From NCBI GenBank assembly GCA_009693335.1, contig SHXK01000011.1, forward strand, positions 1 through 33,640: DNA of 33,640 nucleotides, read 5' to 3'. The DNA comes from Betaproteobacteria bacterium. Its GTDB lineage: Bacteria > Pseudomonadota > Gammaproteobacteria > Burkholderiales > SG8-39. Both the position numbers and the translations under genes were made by a program. Below are positions 12,839-22,910 of this stretch, piece by piece. How positions within the stretch are numbered: the stretch's first letter is position 1; each line of letters begins with the position of its first letter. Below the pieces are notes generated by a model. That model was given only the letters and a program-made list of their open reading frames with translations, did not search any database and was not told the DNA's origin.

Positions 12839-13120
12839 ATGATTCATTTTGTTGTGCATGAAGAGGGCGACGGCGTCGGTGTGGTCGTTGTCGAGGGCGT
12901 GAAAGCGGGTCAGGAACTGATCGGCTGGATCATGGAGGACGACAAAGAACTGCGGATCGCCGCCAAGAGCGACATCCCGATCGGCCACAAGCTGGCGCTC
13001 AAGGACTATCAGCCCGGCGACACGGTGATCAAGTACGGCGTCGACATCGGCAAGGTGGTGGCGCCCATCGCACGCGGCGAACATACCCACGTGCAGAACC
13101 TCAAAACGAAGCGGTGGTAA
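12839..13120 (+). CDS. UxaA-family hydro-lyase small (SAF-domain) subunit, SuyA/UxaA-N like
   Basis: 93 aa: [46 protein letters not shown], characteristic of altronate/galactarate dehydratase N-domains. Confidence 0.85.
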
Positions 13121-13124
13121 GAAA

Positions 13125-14294
13125 ATGGATCTGACAAAAGCAAGCTTCTGGGGCTACCAGCGCGAGAACGGACGCATTGGCGTGCGTAACCATGTGTTGA
13201 TCCTGCCGGTGGACGATCTGTCGAACGCCGCCGCCGAGGCAGTGGCGCACAACATCAAGGGCGCGATCGCCATTCCGCATCCCTACGGACGGTTGCAGTT
13301 TGGCGCTGACCTGGATCTGCATTTCCGCACCCTGATCGGCACTGGCTGCAATCCGAACGTCGCCGCAGTGGTGGTGATCTGCATCGAGGACGGCTGGGCG
13401 AAGAAAGTCGCCGACGGCATCAGCGCCACCGGTAAGCCGGTGTCCTGGTTCGGTATCGAACAGCACGGCGACCATGACACCATCCTGCGCGCCTCCAAGG
13501 CCGCCAGGGAATACGTGCAGTGGGCTTCCGAACTGCGCCGCGTAGAGCGCCCGCTGAAGGACCTGTGGGTGTCGACGAAATGTGGCGAGTCGGACACCAC
13601 TTCGGGTTGCGGCGCCAACCCGACCGTGGGCAACGCCTTCGACAAGCTTTATCCGCACCAGGTAACGCTGGCGTTTGGCGAAACCACCGAACTGACAGGC
13701 GGCGAGCACCTGGTGGCGGCGCGCTGCCGCAACGACGAAGTGCGCAAGAAATTCCAGTTCATGTTCGACCGTTACCAAGCGATCATCGACAAGCACAAGA
13801 CCAGCGACCTCTCAGATTCCCAGCCCACCAAGGGAAATATTGCCGGCGGCCTTACCACCATCGAGGAAAAAGCGCTCGGCAACATCCAGAAAATCGGCCG
13901 TAAGTGCATCGTCGATGGTGTGCTCGACAAGGCGGAAGTGCCGACCGGTCCGGGTCTTTGGTTCATGGACTCCTCCTCGGCGGCGGCGGAAATGGTGACG
14001 CTGTGCGCCGCCTCCGGCTACACGGTGCATTTCTTCCCGACGGGACAGGGCAACGTGATCGGCAACCCGATCCTGCCGGTGATCAAGCTGTGCGCCAACC
14101 CGCGCACCGTGCGCACCATGAGCGAACATGTCGACGTCGACGTATCCGGACTGCTGCGCAAAGAAATGACGCCCGATCAGGCGGGCGACCAGTTGCTGGA
14201 ATGCATGTTCCGCACTGCCAACGGCAGGCTCACTGCCGCCGAAGCGCTGGGGCACCGCGAGTTCGTGCTGACTAGGTTGTACGAAAGCGCTTGA
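13125..14294 (+). CDS. UxaA-family hydro-lyase large subunit (altronate/galactarate dehydratase or SuyB-like)
   Basis: [93 protein letters not shown]. Confidence 0.88.
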
Positions 14295-14303
14295 CGCTTT
14301 CGT
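14281..14303 (+). other. stem-loop spanning the stop codon of the UxaA-like gene
   Basis: ACGAAAGCG-CTTGA-CGCTTTCGT: perfect 9-bp stem with the TGA stop (14292-14294) in the loop; no U-tract. Confidence 0.65.
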
Positions 14304-14319
14304 TCTTGAACAGATCGGC

Positions 14320-15033
14320 TTGAATTTGATTCAGGTCCACGTCTGGCGAGGGGGTGCGAAAGGCGCTTTCCAGTCCTTCGAGGTGCCGCGCCACGCCAGC
14401 CAGACCGTGCTTGATGTGGTCACGCATATCCAGCGGACGCTCGATGCCACGCTCGCTTATCGCTACGCCTGCCGCGTCGGCATGTGCGGCTCCTGTGCGA
14501 TGACAGTGAATGGCGTCGCGCGTTGGACTTGTCGAACGCATGTGGACAAGGTCGTCAAAAACGATCAAATCGAAATTGCGCCGTTGCGCAATCTGCCGGT
14601 GATCCGCGATCTGGTTACCGACATGCGCGAGTTCTTCGACAAATGGGCGCGGGCCAAGGGTAGTTTCGAGAGTGACAGAACGCGCCAGGACGATTTCGCG
14701 GTGCTTCCCCCTGAGGACGAAAACAGAAAACAGGTGGATGCGGCGATCGAGTGCATCGGCTGCGGCGTGTGCTACAGCGCCTGCGACGTGGTTGCCTGGA
14801 ATCCGGATTACCTCGGACCCGCCGCGCTGAACCGCGCCTGGACGCTGGTCAAGGATGAAAGGGACACGGCGGGCGTGGCGCGGCTGCGCGCGATCGCCGG
14901 CGACGCCGGTTGTCATGCCTGCCATACGCACCTGAGTTGCACCGAGCGCTGCCCGAAGCAACTTTCGCCCACTGCCAGCATCGCTGGCTTGAAGCGCGCG
15001 GTCGCCCTGGCCGCGCTGCGGGGGGAGCTGTGA
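14320..15033 (+). CDS. succinate dehydrogenase/fumarate reductase iron-sulfur subunit-like
   Basis: CRVGMCGSCAMTVNG (2Fe-2S), CIGCGVCYSAC and CHTHLSCTERCPKQLSP (Fe-S clusters). Probable TTG start. Confidence 0.88.
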   Translation: MNLIQVHVWRGGAKGAFQSFEVPRHASQTVLDVVTHIQRTLDATLAYRYACRVGMCGSCAMTVNGVARWTCRTHVDKVVKNDQIEIAPLRNLPVIRDLVTDMREFFDKWARAKGSFESDRTRQDDFAVLPPEDENRKQVDAAIECIGCGVCYSACDVVAWNPDYLGPAALNRAWTLVKDERDTAGVARLRAIAGDAGCHACHTHLSCTERCPKQLSPTASIAGLKRAVALAALRGEL

Positions 15034-15368
15034 GCACCCGGGCGCAAACCCTGCTGTGGATGGCGCAACGCGTGAGCGCGGCGGTGCTGGCGCTGTGCGT
15101 GGTGGTGCACCTGGCGACCATGATCTACGCGGTGCGCGGCGGCCTCACGGCGGTGGAGATCCTTGCCCGTACCCGAGGCAGCATCGCCTGGTTGTTGTTC
15201 TATATGCTGTTCGTGCTGGCTACCGTGGTGCACCTGCCTATCGGCCTGCGCGCAGTGCTGGGTGAATGGCTGGGTTGGCGCAGCCCGTCGCGGGACGCAG
15301 CCCTGTTGCTATTTGCCGCAGTCCTCGCCTGGATCGGTATGCGGGCCGTGCTTGGAGTCTTTCTTTGA
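15030..15368 (+). CDS. SdhC/FrdC-like membrane anchor subunit
   Basis: GTG start overlapping upstream stop. ~112 aa, three TM segments, LLWMAQRVSAAVLALCVVVHL and TVVHLPIGLR His-containing helices. Confidence 0.75.
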   Translation: MSTRAQTLLWMAQRVSAAVLALCVVVHLATMIYAVRGGLTAVEILARTRGSIAWLLFYMLFVLATVVHLPIGLRAVLGEWLGWRSPSRDAALLLFAAVLAWIGMRAVLGVFL

Positions 15369-16633
15369 AAGCATGGCAAGAAATGAAAGAAGGCAAAACA
15401 GCGGCCCTGGTCCATCGCCTCTCCGGGATCATGCTGGCGTTGTTCCTGCCGCTGCATTTCTGGGCCTTGAGTCAGGCCCTGCAGGGCGAAGCGAGACTAG
15501 AATCGTTTCTGCGCTGGACCGATCAGCCGCTGGTCAAGGCGAGCGAGTGGGCCATTGTGTTGTTGCTGGCAGTGCATCTAACGGGAGGCATCAGGATTCT
15601 CATGATCGAATTTCTCGCATGGCGTGATTGGCAGAAAAATCTGGCTGCAAGCGCGGCCGCCGTGGCTCTGGCGATCGGGCTCTTGTTCGCTCTCGCCAGC
15701 ACTGCGCAAGCGCAGTCAAGTACCGCGCAAGCGCAGAGCTGGCCGCAGAAGTCGGTGCGCTTTATCGTGCCGTTCCCGCCCGGCGGCGCCACCGACATCG
15801 CGGCGCGGCTGCTCGGCCAGAAGCTCACCGAGGGCTGGGGGCAGACCGTGGTGGTCGAGAACCGCGGCGGCGCGAGCGGCGGTGTCGGCGCGGCCGAAGC
15901 GGCGCGCGCAGCACCCGATGGCTACACCTTCTTTTTTCCCTCCGGTTCGGTGATGACCGCCAACCAGCACATCTACGCGAAGATGGCCTACAACCCGGAG
16001 AAGGATTTCGTTCCAGTCACCAACGTGGTGAGCGGCCCCCAAGTGCTGACCGTGCCGGCAAATTCGCCCTTCAAGACCGTGAAAGAGCTGATTGAATCGG
16101 GCAGGGCACATCCGGGCAAGCTCCTTTTCGGTCACGCCGGCATCGGCTCGCAGACCCACCTCGCGGCGGAGAATTTCGTGTACCAGGCGAAGCTCGATGC
16201 AGTCGCGGTGCCCTACCGGGGTGAGGCCCCCGGGCTGGCGGCGCTGGTCGGCGGCGAGACCCATTTCTTCGTCGGCAACGTGGCGGGCTCGATCGGCTTC
16301 ATCAAGGGGGGGCGCTTGCGCGCGCTGGGGGTGACGAGCAGGACAGAGGCGCCGCAGCTGCCTGGTGTGCCGCCGATCGCGGAAGCGGTGCCGGGATTTG
16401 AAAACGCTGGCTGGTTCGGCATCGTCGCGCCGCGCGGCACGCCGAAGGAGATTATCGACAAGGTTTACCGGGACACTAAGACGGCGCTACAGGACCCGGT
16501 GATGAAAGACAAGCTCTTCGCGCAGGGGTTGGCGCCCGTCGGCAATACGCCCGAGGAGATGGGCCGGGCCATGAAGGAGGAGACGGCGCTGTGGGCGCGC
16601 GTCGTCAAGGAACGCAAGATCAAGGTCGAGTGA
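15365..16633 (+). CDS. fusion: SdhD/FrdD-like membrane anchor + Bug-family substrate-binding protein
   Basis: One uninterrupted frame. ALVHRLSGIMLALFLPLHFWALSQAL...WAIVLLLAVHLTGGIRILMIEF (anchor) runs into NLAASAAAVALAIGLLFALASTAQAQSSTAQAQSWPQKSVRFIVPFPPGGATDIAARLLG (Bug). TTG 15365 or ATG 15383 start; internal in-frame ATG at 15602. Confidence 0.8.
   Translation: MKAWQEMKEGKTAALVHRLSGIMLALFLPLHFWALSQALQGEARLESFLRWTDQPLVKASEWAIVLLLAVHLTGGIRILMIEFLAWRDWQKNLAASAAAVALAIGLLFALASTAQAQSSTAQAQSWPQKSVRFIVPFPPGGATDIAARLLGQKLTEGWGQTVVVENRGGASGGVGAAEAARAAPDGYTFFFPSGSVMTANQHIYAKMAYNPEKDFVPVTNVVSGPQVLTVPANSPFKTVKELIESGRAHPGKLLFGHAGIGSQTHLAAENFVYQAKLDAVAVPYRGEAPGLAALVGGETHFFVGNVAGSIGFIKGGRLRALGVTSRTEAPQLPGVPPIAEAVPGFENAGWFGIVAPRGTPKEIIDKVYRDTKTALQDPVMKDKLFAQGLAPVGNTPEEMGRAMKEETALWARVVKERKIKVE
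15698..15739 (+). repeat. 21-bp in-frame tandem duplication (STAQAQS x2)
   Basis: AGCACTGCGCAAGCGCAGTCA / AGTACCGCGCAAGCGCAGAGC, encoding STAQAQS-STAQAQS at the predicted signal-peptidase region. Confidence 0.85.
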
Positions 16634-17505
16634 AAGTCGATCTGCAGCAGGTCGAGGAAGCAGCCAAGGAGCTCTACATCCGGGCGCTGAAGCTGCTGCC
16701 GCCCGACATCAAGCAGGGTTTCGACAGGCTCGCGGCGACCGAGTCGGAGGTGGGTGCCAAGCGCATGCTCGGCGCCATGATAAAGAACATCAAGGTGGCC
16801 GAAGACACCGCCAACCTTCTTTGCCAGGACACAGGCATCCCGATCTACAACGTGCGCATCGGCCGCGGCGTCGAGGTGGACGGTTTTGGCCTGAAGGAAG
16901 CGATCCGGCGCGGCTGCGCGCGCTCGACGCGCGAGTATTCGTTCCGTTCCTCGATCGTCCATCCGACCACCCGCATCAACGAGCAGACCTCCACCGGACG
17001 CGGGGTGCCGATCATACACATCGATTTTTCAGATCAGAACGATCTCCTCGAGATCCAGATGATTCCCAAGGGCTCCGGCTCGGAGAACAATTCCTGGCTG
17101 AAAATGGCGATCCCCGCCGAGGGCGTCGATGCGATCAAGACTTTCGTCGTCGATTGCGTGCTGGCAGCGGGTGGTAAAACCTGCCCACCGACCATCGTCG
17201 GCGTCGGGGTCGGCGGCACCGCGGATCTGTGCGTACATTTGGCCAAGACCGCGGCGACGCGCGCACTCGGCTCGCGCTGCGAGGATCCCGAGGGCGCGAA
17301 GCTGGAGGAGGCGCTGACACGCGCGGTCAACATGCTGGGCGTCGGTCCGCAGGGACTGGGCGGGGATTCGACCGCTTTCGCCGTGCAGGTCGAAACCGCC
17401 GCCACGCATATCACCATGAACCCGGTGGCGGTAAATATGCAGTGCCATTCGGCGCGCCGTGCGCGCGCGACCTTCCGGCCCGACGGCATCGAGTACGGTT
17501 ACTGA
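16630..17505 (+). CDS. class I fumarase / L(+)-tartrate dehydratase alpha subunit-like
   Basis: NLLCQDTGIPIYNVRIG, TPPT-type CPPTIVGVGVGGT, GPQGLGGDSTAFAVQVETAATHITMNPVAVNMQCHSARRA. GTG start overlapping upstream stop. Confidence 0.9.
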   Translation: MKVDLQQVEEAAKELYIRALKLLPPDIKQGFDRLAATESEVGAKRMLGAMIKNIKVAEDTANLLCQDTGIPIYNVRIGRGVEVDGFGLKEAIRRGCARSTREYSFRSSIVHPTTRINEQTSTGRGVPIIHIDFSDQNDLLEIQMIPKGSGSENNSWLKMAIPAEGVDAIKTFVVDCVLAAGGKTCPPTIVGVGVGGTADLCVHLAKTAATRALGSRCEDPEGAKLEEALTRAVNMLGVGPQGLGGDSTAFAVQVETAATHITMNPVAVNMQCHSARRARATFRPDGIEYGY

Positions 17506-17506
17506 G

Positions 17507-18118
17507 ATGGCGCATTACACCCTCAGGGCGCCGTTCACCGAAGCGCAGGTGCGTGCGCTGCGGGTCAACGACAGCGTGACGCTGGAGGGAACGCTCTACG
17601 GCATCCGCGACGCGACGCAGATACACCTGTTCGACCACGGGCGCAAAACACGTTTCGATCTCTCGGGCCAGGCGGTCATCCATACCGCGCCTAATGTGAA
17701 GAAGGTCGAAAAAAGCGCGCTGCATCCCGTGGGCTATGCTCCGGTGTGCGTGGGCACCACCACCAGCGATCGTATGGAGCGCTTCACCCGACCGCTGATG
17801 GTCCAGTACGGAGTGCGCTTGGTCATTGGCAAGGGCGGCTTGCGTGACGATTCCCTCAAAGCCCTGCATGAAATGGGCGGAGCCTACCTGGCGATCATCG
17901 GCGGGGCGGCCGCGCTGGAGACCACTTGGGTCGAGGCAATCGAGGACGTGGACCTGGACGACCTGCACCCGGAATCGCTGTGGAAGTTTCGCGTCAGAGG
18001 CTTCGGGCTGCTGCTGGTGGCGATGGACAGCCACGGCGGCAGCCTCTACGCGCAAGTGAATAGCAGCGCCCAAGGGCGTCGCGCCAGGGCGCTCGAGAGC
18101 CTCGGCGTGAAGGTCTAA
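17507..18118 (+). CDS. class I fumarase / L(+)-tartrate dehydratase beta subunit-like
   Basis: VTLEGTLYGIRDATQIHLF, GPTTS-like VGTTTSDRMERFT, IGKGGLRDDSLKALHEMGGAYLAIIGGAAAL. Confidence 0.9.
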   Translation: MAHYTLRAPFTEAQVRALRVNDSVTLEGTLYGIRDATQIHLFDHGRKTRFDLSGQAVIHTAPNVKKVEKSALHPVGYAPVCVGTTTSDRMERFTRPLMVQYGVRLVIGKGGLRDDSLKALHEMGGAYLAIIGGAAALETTWVEAIEDVDLDDLHPESLWKFRVRGFGLLLVAMDSHGGSLYAQVNSSAQGRRARALESLGVKV

Positions 18119-18188
18119 CGCACGAGTGCGTTCCAGTCTCAATGCACGAGTGCGTTCCAGTCTCAACGCGTGAGCGCGTTCCTGTCTA
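18112..18188 (+). repeat. palindromic repeat element, locus 2: three tandem copies, 24-bp period
   Basis: GTCTAACGCACGAGTGCGTTCCA / GTCTCAATGCACGAGTGCGTTCCA / GTCTCAACGCGTGAGCGCGTTCCT / GTCTA. Stems start at 18117, 18141 and 18165. Confidence 0.88.
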
Positions 18189-18218
18189 GTAGAATTGATC
18201 CCCCTTAGAGGAGAAAGC

Positions 18219-19181
18219 ATGAAATCCACGATTGCTATTGCGGCGCTTGCGCTGCTCGGACTGGCGGGCGGCGCGCTGGCGCAGGACAAAGTTACGATCT
18301 CGATCTCCACCGGACCCACCGGCGGCGTGTATTACCCGTTGGGTGGCGGCATCGCGAATATTCTCTCCAAATATGTGCCCGGTTACTCCGCCAACGCGGA
18401 ATCAACCGCGGGCTCGGTCGCCAACCTGCAGCTCATGACGCAGAAGAAATCCGACCTCGCGCTGACGATGGCCGATGCGGCTTGGGACGGCTACAAGGCG
18501 CAGGGCAAGTTCAGCGGCGCCGAAGTGCCGGTGCGCGCGCTGATGGTGGCTTATCCGAACCGCATGCACGTGGTCACCGTGGAAGGCCGCGGCATCAACA
18601 GCTTCGCTGACTTGAAGGGCAAGCGTGTCTCCACCGGCGCGCCGAACAGCGCCACCGAACTGATGACCCAGCGCCTGCTCGAGGCATACGGCATGGACTG
18701 GAACAAAGACATCCGCCGTGACCGCTTGACGCCGGAGAAGTCGGCCGACGCCATCAAGGACAACAAGAGCGACGCCTTCTTTTTCGTGGTCGGGATCCCG
18801 ACCTCATCGGTCACCGATTTGGCGGCGACGCCGGGGACCAAAATCAAGTTGATCGACCACGCCGAGGCGGTGGAAAAAATGGTGGCCAAGCACGGCCCGC
18901 TCTATGTGCGCGACGTAATTCCGGCGGGCTCTTATCCCGGCCAGGACAAGGTCAACCACGTAGCGACGGTGTGGAACCTGCTCGTCGCCCACCGTGACAT
19001 GCCCGACCAAGTGGCCTACAACATCCTGAAGACCATCTTCGACAAGAAAGCCGATCTCATCCTGGTGCACAAGGAAGCGGCCAATTTCGAGGTCAAGACC
19101 CAATCCAAGGCCGCGGCGACGATTCCCTATCACCCCGGGGCAGTTAAATACTATGCAGAGAGGGGCTTGAAGCTGAATTGA
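18219..19181 (+). CDS. TAXI family TRAP transporter solute-binding subunit
   Basis: Signal peptide; VTISISTGPTGGVYYPLGGGIANILSKYVPGYSANAESTAGSVANLQLM. SD AGAGGAG upstream. Confidence 0.92.
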   Translation: MKSTIAIAALALLGLAGGALAQDKVTISISTGPTGGVYYPLGGGIANILSKYVPGYSANAESTAGSVANLQLMTQKKSDLALTMADAAWDGYKAQGKFSGAEVPVRALMVAYPNRMHVVTVEGRGINSFADLKGKRVSTGAPNSATELMTQRLLEAYGMDWNKDIRRDRLTPEKSADAIKDNKSDAFFFVVGIPTSSVTDLAATPGTKIKLIDHAEAVEKMVAKHGPLYVRDVIPAGSYPGQDKVNHVATVWNLLVAHRDMPDQVAYNILKTIFDKKADLILVHKEAANFEVKTQSKAAATIPYHPGAVKYYAERGLKLN

Positions 19182-21190
19182 ACGTGGCCGGGGAGGCGCA
19201 GCCGCTGACCACGCAGGTCGATGCCTCGGCCCTTAAGAAGGCCGGGGAGTTCATCGAGGAGGAAGAGGGCGTCCACCACCGCTTTGTTGGCGCGTGGGGG
19301 ACTTGTCTGTTCGTTCTTGCTGTCATCATGTCGCTGTTCCACCTGTGGGCGGCGTACGGCAACATCAATCCCTATCAGCTGCGTTACGCACACGTCGGTT
19401 TCGTGCTGTTCCTCTCCTTTACGCTGTTTCCGTGGCGCCGTGCGGCGCGCAATCGTTTCTCCTGGCTAGACCTGGGGCTGGCGCTGCTGAGTGTGGCGGC
19501 CATGCTGTACGCCGTGTGGGGCGGCGACGATTTCCTCGATCGCAGTACGCTGCCGAACCGCATCGACAATGTCCTCGGCGTTGTTTTCATGTTGCTGGTG
19601 CTCGAGGCGGCGCGCCGCACCACGGGCTGGATCATGCCGTTCGTGGTGATTCTGTTTGTCGTCTATGCGATGGTGGGCCGCTGGTTGCCCGCGCCCTGGA
19701 CCCATGTCGGCTATGACATCGGGCGCTTGGTCGGCCACATGTACATGACGTTGGAAGGAGTTTTTGGCACCGCGGTGGATGTTTCCTCCTCGCTCATCAT
19801 CCTCTTTACGATCTACGGGGCGATGTTGCAGTTCTCGGGCGCGGGCAAGTTCTATCTCGATTTTTCATTCGCAGCCCTCGGCGGCAAGCCGACCGGCGCG
19901 GGCCGCACCATCGTGTTGTCGTCGTTCCTGCTCGGCGGGCCTTCGGGATCCGGGGTGGCGACCACAGTCACCTTGGGCACGGTCGCTTACCCGATGCTCG
20001 CCAAGGCGGGCTATGAGAAAAACGCCGCCGGCGGGTTGCTCGCGGCCGGTGGCTTGGGCGCGATTCTTTCGCCGCCGGTGCTGGGCGCTGCGGCCTTCCT
20101 GATCGCCGAGTTCCTCAAGATGAGCTACCTCGACGTGATCAAAATGGCGGTCATCCCGACTTGCCTGTATTACCTGTCGCTGTTCTTGATGGTCGAGATC
20201 GACGCGCGCAAGTACGGCATGAAAATGGTTGACGTGCAAGCGACGCAGAGCGCTTGGCAGCTCACGAAAACCCAGGGCTTTCACTTCTTTTCGCTGATCT
20301 CGATTGTGGTGTTCATGTTGGTCGGTTTCTCGCCGATTGGCGCCGTTTTCTGGGCGACGGTAGTCGCGGCGCTGACCAGTTTCATCCATCGCGACTGCGC
20401 GCTGCTGGATCTGCGGGTATTCCGCGAGCGGCCCAAGGGCTGGGTCAGGGACATCTTGCTGCGCTCGAAACTCGCCAAGGCGCTGGAGGCGGGGTCGGCC
20501 GGCATGATCAACGTCGGCGCCACCTGCGCCGCCGCCGGCATCATCGTGGGTATCGTCACCCTGACCGGGCTCGGCTTGCGCTTCTCCGAGATCGTCATTT
20601 CTTACGCCGGCGGCAGCCTGGTGCTGACGGCGATTTTCACTGCCCTGATCGTCTGGGTGGTTGGCCTCGCGGTGCCGGTGACCGCGAGCTACATCATCTG
20701 TGCGGTGATCGCGGCGCCGGCGCTGATCAAGCTGGGCGTGCCCGATTACGCCGCGCACATGTTCATTTTCTACTACGCGGTGCTCTCGGAAGTCTCACCA
20801 CCGACGGCCTTGTCGCCTTTCGCCGCCGCTGCGATTACCGGAGGCGACCCGTACAAAACGACGCTGCAGTCCTGGAAGTACACCCTGCCCGCCTTCGTGG
20901 TGCCGTTCATGTTCGTGCTCGACCCGATCGGCGTTGGCCTGCTGCTCAACATCCCGAAAGGCGGTAGCTGGGTTGACGTGCTGACGATTACCACGCTCGC
21001 GGTGGTGGCCTTGGTGGCGCTCGCCGCAGCCGCCGAGGGCTGGCTGTTCAAGAAGACCACCCTGCTAGAGCGCCTGGTGCTGCTCGCGGCCGGGATCCTC
21101 GTCCTCACACCCGCTGCGCTCAACGACGCGGTCGGGATCGGGCTGCTCGCCGCGGTAATGGCGATCCAATTCTTCCGATCCCGTGCGTGA
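19178..21190 (+). CDS. TRAP transporter fused permease (4TM/12TM)
   Basis: 670 aa, many TM segments; FLLGGPSGSGVATTVTLGTVAYPMLAKAGYEKNAAGGLLAAGGLGAILSPPVLGAAAFLIAEF. Start TTG 19178 or GTG 19184. Confidence 0.92.
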   Translation: MNVAGEAQPLTTQVDASALKKAGEFIEEEEGVHHRFVGAWGTCLFVLAVIMSLFHLWAAYGNINPYQLRYAHVGFVLFLSFTLFPWRRAARNRFSWLDLGLALLSVAAMLYAVWGGDDFLDRSTLPNRIDNVLGVVFMLLVLEAARRTTGWIMPFVVILFVVYAMVGRWLPAPWTHVGYDIGRLVGHMYMTLEGVFGTAVDVSSSLIILFTIYGAMLQFSGAGKFYLDFSFAALGGKPTGAGRTIVLSSFLLGGPSGSGVATTVTLGTVAYPMLAKAGYEKNAAGGLLAAGGLGAILSPPVLGAAAFLIAEFLKMSYLDVIKMAVIPTCLYYLSLFLMVEIDARKYGMKMVDVQATQSAWQLTKTQGFHFFSLISIVVFMLVGFSPIGAVFWATVVAALTSFIHRDCALLDLRVFRERPKGWVRDILLRSKLAKALEAGSAGMINVGATCAAAGIIVGIVTLTGLGLRFSEIVISYAGGSLVLTAIFTALIVWVVGLAVPVTASYIICAVIAAPALIKLGVPDYAAHMFIFYYAVLSEVSPPTALSPFAAAAITGGDPYKTTLQSWKYTLPAFVVPFMFVLDPIGVGLLLNIPKGGSWVDVLTITTLAVVALVALAAAAEGWLFKKTTLLERLVLLAAGILVLTPAALNDAVGIGLLAAVMAIQFFRSRA

Positions 21191-22910
21191 GCTTGCCACC
21201 GACATCCTGATCCTCGGCGCGGGGGGCGCGGGCCTCTTTGCCGCGCTGCACGCGCACCAGACGAATCCTTCGCTCTCGATCACGGTGGCGGTGAAGGGGC
21301 TGCTCGGCAAGAGCGGTTGCACGCGCATGGTGCAGGGCGGCTATAACGTGGCGCTGGCGAAGGAAGACTCGGTCGAGCGACACTTCATGGACACCATCGA
21401 AGGTGGCAAGTGGTTGCCCGACCAGGAGCTCGCCTGGAAGCTGGTTACTTTGGCGGTGGAGAGAATCCGCGAGCTGGAAAATGAACTGGGTTGTTTTTTT
21501 GACCGCAATCCCGACGGCAGCGTGCACCAGAAAGCTTTCGCCGGGCAGACCTTCGACCGCACGGTGCACAAGGGCGATCTGACTGGGATCGAGATCATAA
21601 ACCGGCTCGCCGAGCAGGTCTGGGCCAGAAAGATCGGCCGGCTGGAGGAATACCGGGCTATGGAGTTGATAAAAAACACCTCCGGTACTGCGATCGCGGG
21701 GGTTTTGTTCATCGACATGCGCAGCGGCGAATACGTTTTCGTGCGCGCCAAAGCGGTGCTGCTCGGCACCGGCGGCGGGCCAACTATGTACAAGTACCAC
21801 ACCCCCTCGGGCGACAAAAGCTGCGACGGTCTGGCGATGGCGCTGCGCGCCGGATTACCGCTGCGCGATATGGAGATGGTGCAGTTCCATCCGACCGGCC
21901 TGTATGCAGGCGCGCACACACGCATGACGGGCACCGTGCTCGAAGAGGGTCTGCGCGGCGCGGGCGGCCACCTGTTGAATGGCGCCAAGCAGCGCTTCAT
22001 GCCGAAGTACGCCCCGCAAGCGGAACGCGCGACGCGCGACTTGGTCTCGCGTGCGATGTACGCGGAGATGAGGGCCGGAAATACCAGCCCCAACGGCGGG
22101 CTTTATCTCTCAATGCAGCACCTGGATAGTGAACTGGTTCGCAAGCAATTCCGCGGCATGGTGGAACGCTGCACCGATTGCGGCTTCGACCTGGCGGGCG
22201 GTCTGGTCGAAGTGGTGCCGACCGCGCATTACATGATGGGCGGTGTCGAATTCAGCGCCGATTGCAGCACGGTCCTGCCGGGCCTGTTCGTCGCCGGTGA
22301 GGATGCGGGCGGGGTGCATGGTGCCAACCGTCTGGGCGGCAACGGCGTCGCCAACTCGACGGTGTTCGGCGCCGTGGCCGGCGAGGCGATGGCGCAATGG
22401 CTAGATCAGGAAGTCTCGTTTGCTGAGCCGGATCGTTCGACCATCGAGAAGTCGATGGCCGAATGTGAAGCGCCATTCAAGGCGAGTAAGGCTGTGCACG
22501 GCGCTCTCGAACCGCTGCGCGAGCGGCTCTACGAAGTGATGTGGCACAAGGTCGGGATCATTCGCGACGATGCGGGCTTGCGCGCGGCATTGGCGGAACT
22601 ATCCGCCATCGAGCACGACCTGTCGGTATGCGGCATCGCGGACGCCAACCGCGCCTTTAACTTGAGCTGGCACGACTGGCTGAACCTGAAGAGCTTGACC
22701 CAGACCAGCCGCATAATCGCCACAGCGGCGCGCGCGCGCAACGACTCGCGCGGCGCGCACTTCCGTGATGATTATCCGCAGACCGGGCCGTTGGAGAACT
22801 CTGCGTATACGAGCTTGCAAATGACAGCTGCCGGGCTGCAGGTCGAAACCAAACCCGTGCTGTTCACGCGCGTGCGGCCCGGCCAGAGCCTGCTGCAGGA
22901 CGCCGCCTGA
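21183..22910 (+). CDS. FAD-binding SdhA/FrdA-like flavoprotein
   Basis: TDILILGAGGAGLFAALHA (dinucleotide fold), MVQGGYNVAL, MEMVQFHPTGLY, HYMMGGVEF, GLFVAGEDAGGVHGANRLGGNGVANSTVFG. GTG start. Confidence 0.9.
   Translation: MRELATDILILGAGGAGLFAALHAHQTNPSLSITVAVKGLLGKSGCTRMVQGGYNVALAKEDSVERHFMDTIEGGKWLPDQELAWKLVTLAVERIRELENELGCFFDRNPDGSVHQKAFAGQTFDRTVHKGDLTGIEIINRLAEQVWARKIGRLEEYRAMELIKNTSGTAIAGVLFIDMRSGEYVFVRAKAVLLGTGGGPTMYKYHTPSGDKSCDGLAMALRAGLPLRDMEMVQFHPTGLYAGAHTRMTGTVLEEGLRGAGGHLLNGAKQRFMPKYAPQAERATRDLVSRAMYAEMRAGNTSPNGGLYLSMQHLDSELVRKQFRGMVERCTDCGFDLAGGLVEVVPTAHYMMGGVEFSADCSTVLPGLFVAGEDAGGVHGANRLGGNGVANSTVFGAVAGEAMAQWLDQEVSFAEPDRSTIEKSMAECEAPFKASKAVHGALEPLRERLYEVMWHKVGIIRDDAGLRAALAELSAIEHDLSVCGIADANRAFNLSWHDWLNLKSLTQTSRIIATAARARNDSRGAHFRDDYPQTGPLENSAYTSLQMTAAGLQVETKPVLFTRVRPGQSLLQDAA

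Follow-up and report, generated by a model that had tools for sequence, protein, structure and literature searches.

Does a gene in which a respiratory membrane anchor runs in frame into a periplasmic solute receptor yield one protein or two? The question is raised by an open reading frame at 15365-16633 of a 33,640-nt stretch of DNA from Betaproteobacteria bacterium (hereafter the window; all features described here lie on its plus strand), which joins an SdhC-type anchor to a Bug/TctC receptor. The answer proposed here, to which a probability of about 0.5 is given, is that this is a nested in-frame gene: an internal start and cleavage by signal peptidase I would together lead to two proteins, an SdhC anchor and a soluble Bug receptor.

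A fused frame in six species

The frame runs uninterrupted from a TTG at 15365 to the TGA at 16633. Its start codon overlaps the TGA (15366-15368) of the preceding anchor gene in an NTGA arrangement, and the other fused genes begin at the homologous place with ATG, GTG, or TTG, likewise in NTGA overlaps. Two Pfam domains are found in the translated product, both above their gathering cut-offs: Sdh_cyt (PF01127, E 1.1e-9, residues 12-103) and TctC (PF03401, E 2.2e-62, 211.5 bits, residues 147-418). The AlphaFold model of the fused protein, built on a 44-row alignment, has a mean pLDDT of 89.7, with the junction among its least confident parts (block pLDDT 66-76). With an open frame, two full domains, and five more fused species, the in-frame fusion claimed in the preliminary description is borne out, and the fused frame at 15365-16633 is confirmed as real.

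The relatives compared were the 12 other species of the genus, in separate assemblies. The same in-frame fusion is present in five of them (G061, G068, G069, G070, and G071); another five (G060 and G063-G066) carry separate genes, with bug directly downstream of the anchor gene, and no match to the locus was found in the other two. The six fused species are related, uncultured bacteria. Elsewhere in the family, too, the two genes are separate and bug follows the anchor gene directly. The family loci examined (99 genomes searched, the remainder judged by open-frame length) contain no further fusion, and neither do 250 genomes taken from the order or, outside the genus, the best 80 loci of a species-level genome collection. 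Two candidates were rejected along the way: a 433-aa frame in G233, which is unfused and merely extended upstream, and an apparent Bug-fumarase fusion in G060 (L124, about 1800-1845), where a run of N marks a scaffold gap and creates a false fused frame.

Between the fused genes, the anchor halves differ by a dN of 0.02-0.22 at a dS of about 0.3-2, which argues that the fused frame is old and has been kept, and indicates that the anchor half is under purifying selection in all six. A fusion common to six species at such a synonymous distance is neither chance nor sequencing error. Although the genomes come as fragmented drafts, most of them from metagenomes, the probability of an assembly or sequencing artefact is negligible, the same junction being found in six species with separate assemblies and high synonymous divergence. 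The suspicion of an isolated case or a sequencing error was thus already refuted by the relatives, of which some share the junction and others have separate genes.

The two halves and their junction

The first half (15365-15700) is an SdhC-type anchor part with three transmembrane (TM) helices, as indicated by PF01127, TIGR02970, a phmmer search in which E. coli SdhC (cytochrome b556, 1nek_C) is the best PDB match, and the AlphaFold model, where the helices span residues 2-38, 55-83, and 88-120. The TIGR02970 score is 54.3 bits in the window, just above the cut-off of 52.3, but 44-46 bits, below it, in four fused relatives. This half had originally been taken for a two-helix segment of the SdhD/FrdD type. 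Neither part of that description holds, since TIGR02970 and 1nek_C place it closest to SdhC and the model has three helices; the SdhD-like subunit is, weakly, the product of the preceding gene (15030-15368), which matches PF01127 and falls below the cut-off of TIGR02968.

The likeness to E. coli SdhC comprises the three TM helices, the presence of sdhA and sdhB in the operon, and two aligned residues, His71 with the heme ligand His84 and Arg18 with the quinone-site Arg31. Contrary to E. coli SdhC, the C-terminus continues into a receptor, and an equivalent of the quinone-site Ser27 is absent, with Ala14 in its place. The most diverged of the fused genes is that of G070 (L115): its anchor sits on a long branch, its TM3 contains a proline, and its Bug half is closest to another genus (L021, L026).

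The second half is a mature Bug/TctC domain (WPQKSVRFIVPFPPGGATD..., 15740-16630), recognized by PF03401 and by Foldseek. The domain is complete, as the preliminary description had stated: in the model, its 297 aa adopt the two-lobed Bug fold, with a TMt of 0.96 to Bug27 (2qpq_A) in Foldseek. It resembles Bug27 (2qpq), AdpC (5oei), and TphC (7ndr) in sequence and in the completeness of the fold, but here the receptor has no signal peptide of its own, follows on from a complex II anchor in the same frame, and belongs to a TAXI-TRAP operon. More precisely, it lacks a cleavable signal peptide in that the n- and h-regions are gone with respect to the unfused relatives, while the c-region and the AXA motif are kept.

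How the two halves were joined can be read from the unfused relatives. There, SdhC ends in ...GLAFALAL followed by a stop codon (FALAL-stop), and in the closer relatives the bug start lies 17-60 bases past this stop, usually after a Shine-Dalgarno (SD) sequence. Unfused Bug begins with a normal signal peptide, e.g., MKLSKLLLIAAGLALAGTAQA-QSWPQKSVRF, whereas the fused genes read ...GLLFALSSTAHA-QAWPQKSVRF at the junction. What is missing in the fused genes is the SdhC stop, the SD and start codon of bug, and the part of its signal peptide that comprises the n- and h-regions, so that a complete TM3 runs directly into the AXA motif and the mature domain of Bug. We infer that the fusion arose by deletion. 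According to hydrophobicity and to the alignment with the unfused SdhC and Bug ends, TM3 of the anchor (15641-15697) stands in for the h-region of the Bug signal peptide. The double role originally ascribed to this hydrophobic stretch is therefore well founded, a complete TM3 being joined to the Bug c-region and AXA.

The first AXA (A-Q-A, 15704-15712) is a predicted signal peptidase I site, separated from the mature domain by only about 2-9 residues; each of the six fused genes has either AHA or AQA here. In this genome only among the six, a 21-nt tandem duplication (STAQAQS-STAQAQS, STAQAQSSTAQAQS; 15698-15739) gives rise to a second AXA (15725-15733) and doubles the signal-peptidase site. 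The AXA follows a TM helix whose end would face outward, judging from the orientation of E. coli SdhC. This arrangement supports the earlier suggestions that the Bug domain is periplasmic and, given the motif in all six genes, that cleavage at AQA is possible. The uncharged run of TM3 comprises 21-23 residues in five of the six fused genes, compared with 14-19 in native Bug signal peptides, a difference in length that could slow cleavage.

A candidate internal start and the products of the frame

Inside the anchor half, an SD-like GGAGG (15584-15588) precedes an ATG (15602-15604) that is proposed to be the start of a pre-Bug (MIEFLAWRDWQK...). The arrangement GGAGG-N13-ATG (15584-15604) is common to all six fused genes, and no other in-frame ATG or GTG is shared by them all; in the aligned anchor, this ATG is codon 65. 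The spacing of 13 nt is longer than usual; a nearer and weaker SD-like purine stretch is provided by an AGR arginine codon (15593-15595), which is AGG here and AGG or AGA in each of the six. The internal SD is strong in each of the fused genes (-9.3 to -10.3 kcal/mol). Around the start, the local GC content of the fused genes is 0.47-0.57, whereas unfused members of the family have about 0.73; the local MFE is -7 to -15 kcal/mol against -16 to -36 kcal/mol, the former range overlapping that of the true bug starts of unfused relatives (-5 to -17 kcal/mol).

Upon synonymous resampling, the joint probability of the SD and the weak folding was 0.0013, 0.025, 0, 0.0027, 0.027, and 0.0007 in the six species; SD strength alone is unremarkable given the amino acids (P 0.04-0.16), and the internal-start segment ranks 2-31 of about 400 for weak folding, not first. 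An invariant A is found at one of 151 four-fold sites of invariant residues, namely in the GGA of GGAGG, and AGR is used by all six genes at one of ten invariant arginines, the one just before ATG 15602, counts in which the six sequences are not independent because they share ancestry. Synonymous variation is not lower across the whole internal-start region (0.47 vs 0.37 overall), only the SD-forming positions being fixed, and no sigma-70-like site that could serve as an internal promoter was found in 14250-16700. The n-region of the proposed pre-Bug signal peptide has a net charge of about zero. A fusion-specific Met was discarded as a sole argument, since LLMLEF is frequent in unfused SdhCs outside the family. 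Use of ATG 15602, which had been raised as a possibility, gains support from its presence in frame with a conserved SD and a weakly folded, AT-rich context, and the conserved internal start probably still allows the Bug receptor to be made alone.

In the proposed mechanism, translation of the whole frame would be coupled to ribosomes finishing the upstream anchor gene, and SdhC would insert into the membrane in an N-in/C-out orientation. A cut by signal peptidase I after A-(Q/H)-A would then yield a free periplasmic Bug and an SdhC that is close to normal. Extra pre-Bug would be produced from the conserved GGAGG...ATG, with the TM3 codons acting as its signal peptide, and this internal initiation would give back to the receptor the supply of its own that was lost with the fusion. 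Bug would thus have two sources, the precursor and, probably mainly, the internal start. Its role would be the usual one of a periplasmic receptor, here within an operon for uptake and oxidation of the dicarboxylate type. An evenly balanced proposal is that the fusion may have survived thanks to the new internal ribosome-binding site, with about 110 bases serving as both TM3 and export signal, and may have spread between species as a recombination cassette of roughly 0.5 kb.

A tentative alternative, clearly behind the reading with internal initiation, is that the frame works as a polyprotein only, translated once and cut by signal peptidase I into SdhC and Bug at a ratio of 1:1, with the internal start unused. 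The outward end of TM3, with the conserved AXA immediately behind it, fits this reading. So does the Bradyrhizobium fbcH cytochrome b/c1 polyprotein, which is processed likewise and whose junction helix is the signal sequence for signal peptidase. In that gene, too, a multi-helix respiratory membrane subunit is fused in frame to a protein of the periplasmic side, but both halves of fbcH belong to one complex, whereas the present anchor is followed by a solute receptor unrelated to it, and the frame has a predicted internal start. Cleavage of a single product, however, leaves the conservation of the GGAGG, the AGR codon, and the ATG unexplained, as well as the AT-rich surroundings with their weak folding, and the level of Bug would be tied to that of the anchor.

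For the nested gene with two products, parallels exist in Cas11b (PMC11899642) and in RpnS within rpn (PMC10327210), where in-frame internal starts give a second product that shares the frame and the stop codon of the first. In those cases the small product is a soluble portion of the large one, whereas here the shared stretch would be a TM helix once and an export signal once, and only the fused lineage has the start context.

The preliminary description had also suggested that Bug could stay on the complex II-like anchor, coupling substrate capture to quinone-linked oxidation or reduction. The frame is open, TM3 is long enough for a stable anchor, and helix 88-120 continues into the linker in the full-length model. 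Such a tethered receptor is nevertheless unlikely, because the AXA is kept in all six genes at so short a distance from the mature domain, and because lineages have exchanged their Bug halves, also with species in which Bug is separate, so that close co-adaptation of anchor and receptor looks weak. The conserved AXA and the conserved internal ribosome-binding site favor release or separate synthesis of Bug, which leaves this coupling unsupported and a permanently tethered receptor less likely than a nested gene with two products. Even less probable is a loss of function of the fused anchor, in which the frame would mainly supply Bug with a leader and signal peptide while the full-length protein is degraded: the long anchor branch and the TM3 proline of G070 would suit such decay, but purifying selection in all six genes, the conserved heme- and quinone-site residues, and an operon complete with SdhA and SdhB speak against it.

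Within the literature collection searched, no paper turned up on Bug or TctC fused to a respiratory subunit, nor one on the processing of fbcH. The locus shows how the fusion of functionally unlike genes can be tolerated: the helix of one protein replaces the export signal of the other, and internal initiation probably brings back separate dosage. A single genus here allows separate genes to be compared with a fused gene that likely has a new internal start. Automatic annotation would report one fusion protein, and the proposed second product would be overlooked.

Recombination history and operon context

The fused anchor halves form one clade (100/99), whereas the Bug halves and flanking genes of the same species do not. 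The anchor data reject the groupings of the Bug tree (AU p about 1e-7), and the fused group as a clade is rejected by Bug (AU p 0.0004), sdhB (0.0003), and uxaL (0.002), with fumA borderline (0.037) and the upstream anchor not rejecting it (0.19). Vertical inheritance of the whole operon together with the fusion is therefore rejected on the Bug, sdhB, and uxaL trees. A search for rpoB as the basis of a species tree gave no match in G000, G063, G064, and G070.

Identity profiles point in the same direction. Between the fused G069 and the unfused G063, identity is 81-95% across sdhB and most of Bug and falls to 53-68% over about 15220-15620; between 15420 and 15660, G069 is 83-94% identical to the fused G061. 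In the window and at homologous places in L120-L123, the sdhC segment is strongly mosaic, and the flanking genes have other histories. The incongruent trees and the identity switches indicate that the fused anchor and junction moved between species as a short homologous-recombination tract of roughly 0.5 kb, placed approximately at 15150-15780 by sliding identity at homologous positions. Equivalently, unfused alleles may have moved the opposite way in some lineages. Taken together, the trees show a single origin of the fused anchor segment and its later exchange between species by recombination. The anchor tree rejects the genus as one clade (p 0.019), and the source of the fused allele may therefore lie in another genus.

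The order of the operon (12839-22910) is conserved. It begins with a UxaA/galactarate-dehydratase-type hydro-lyase (12839-14294) of two subunits, small (12839-13120) and large (13125-14294), followed by an SdhB-like iron-sulfur subunit (14320-15033), the upstream anchor, and the anchor and bug, fused or separate. Downstream lie a class I fumarase/tartrate-dehydratase-type hydratase (16630-18118; alpha 16630-17505, beta about 17507-18118), a TAXI solute-binding protein (18219-19181) with a fused TRAP permease (19178-21190; together 18219-21190), and an SdhA/FrdA-like flavoprotein subunit (21183-22910). This gene content suggests the uptake and the oxidation or hydration of a C4-C5 dicarboxylate or hydroxyacid.

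Orphan Bug receptors without an adjacent TctAB are common (PMC5812351). The whole genome (G000, 2.06 Mb, incomplete) holds 54 Bug/TctC-like matches, a large expansion for its size. In the operon itself, two receptor types, Bug and TAXI, are found together, and the gene for the complex II-like flavoprotein comes last.
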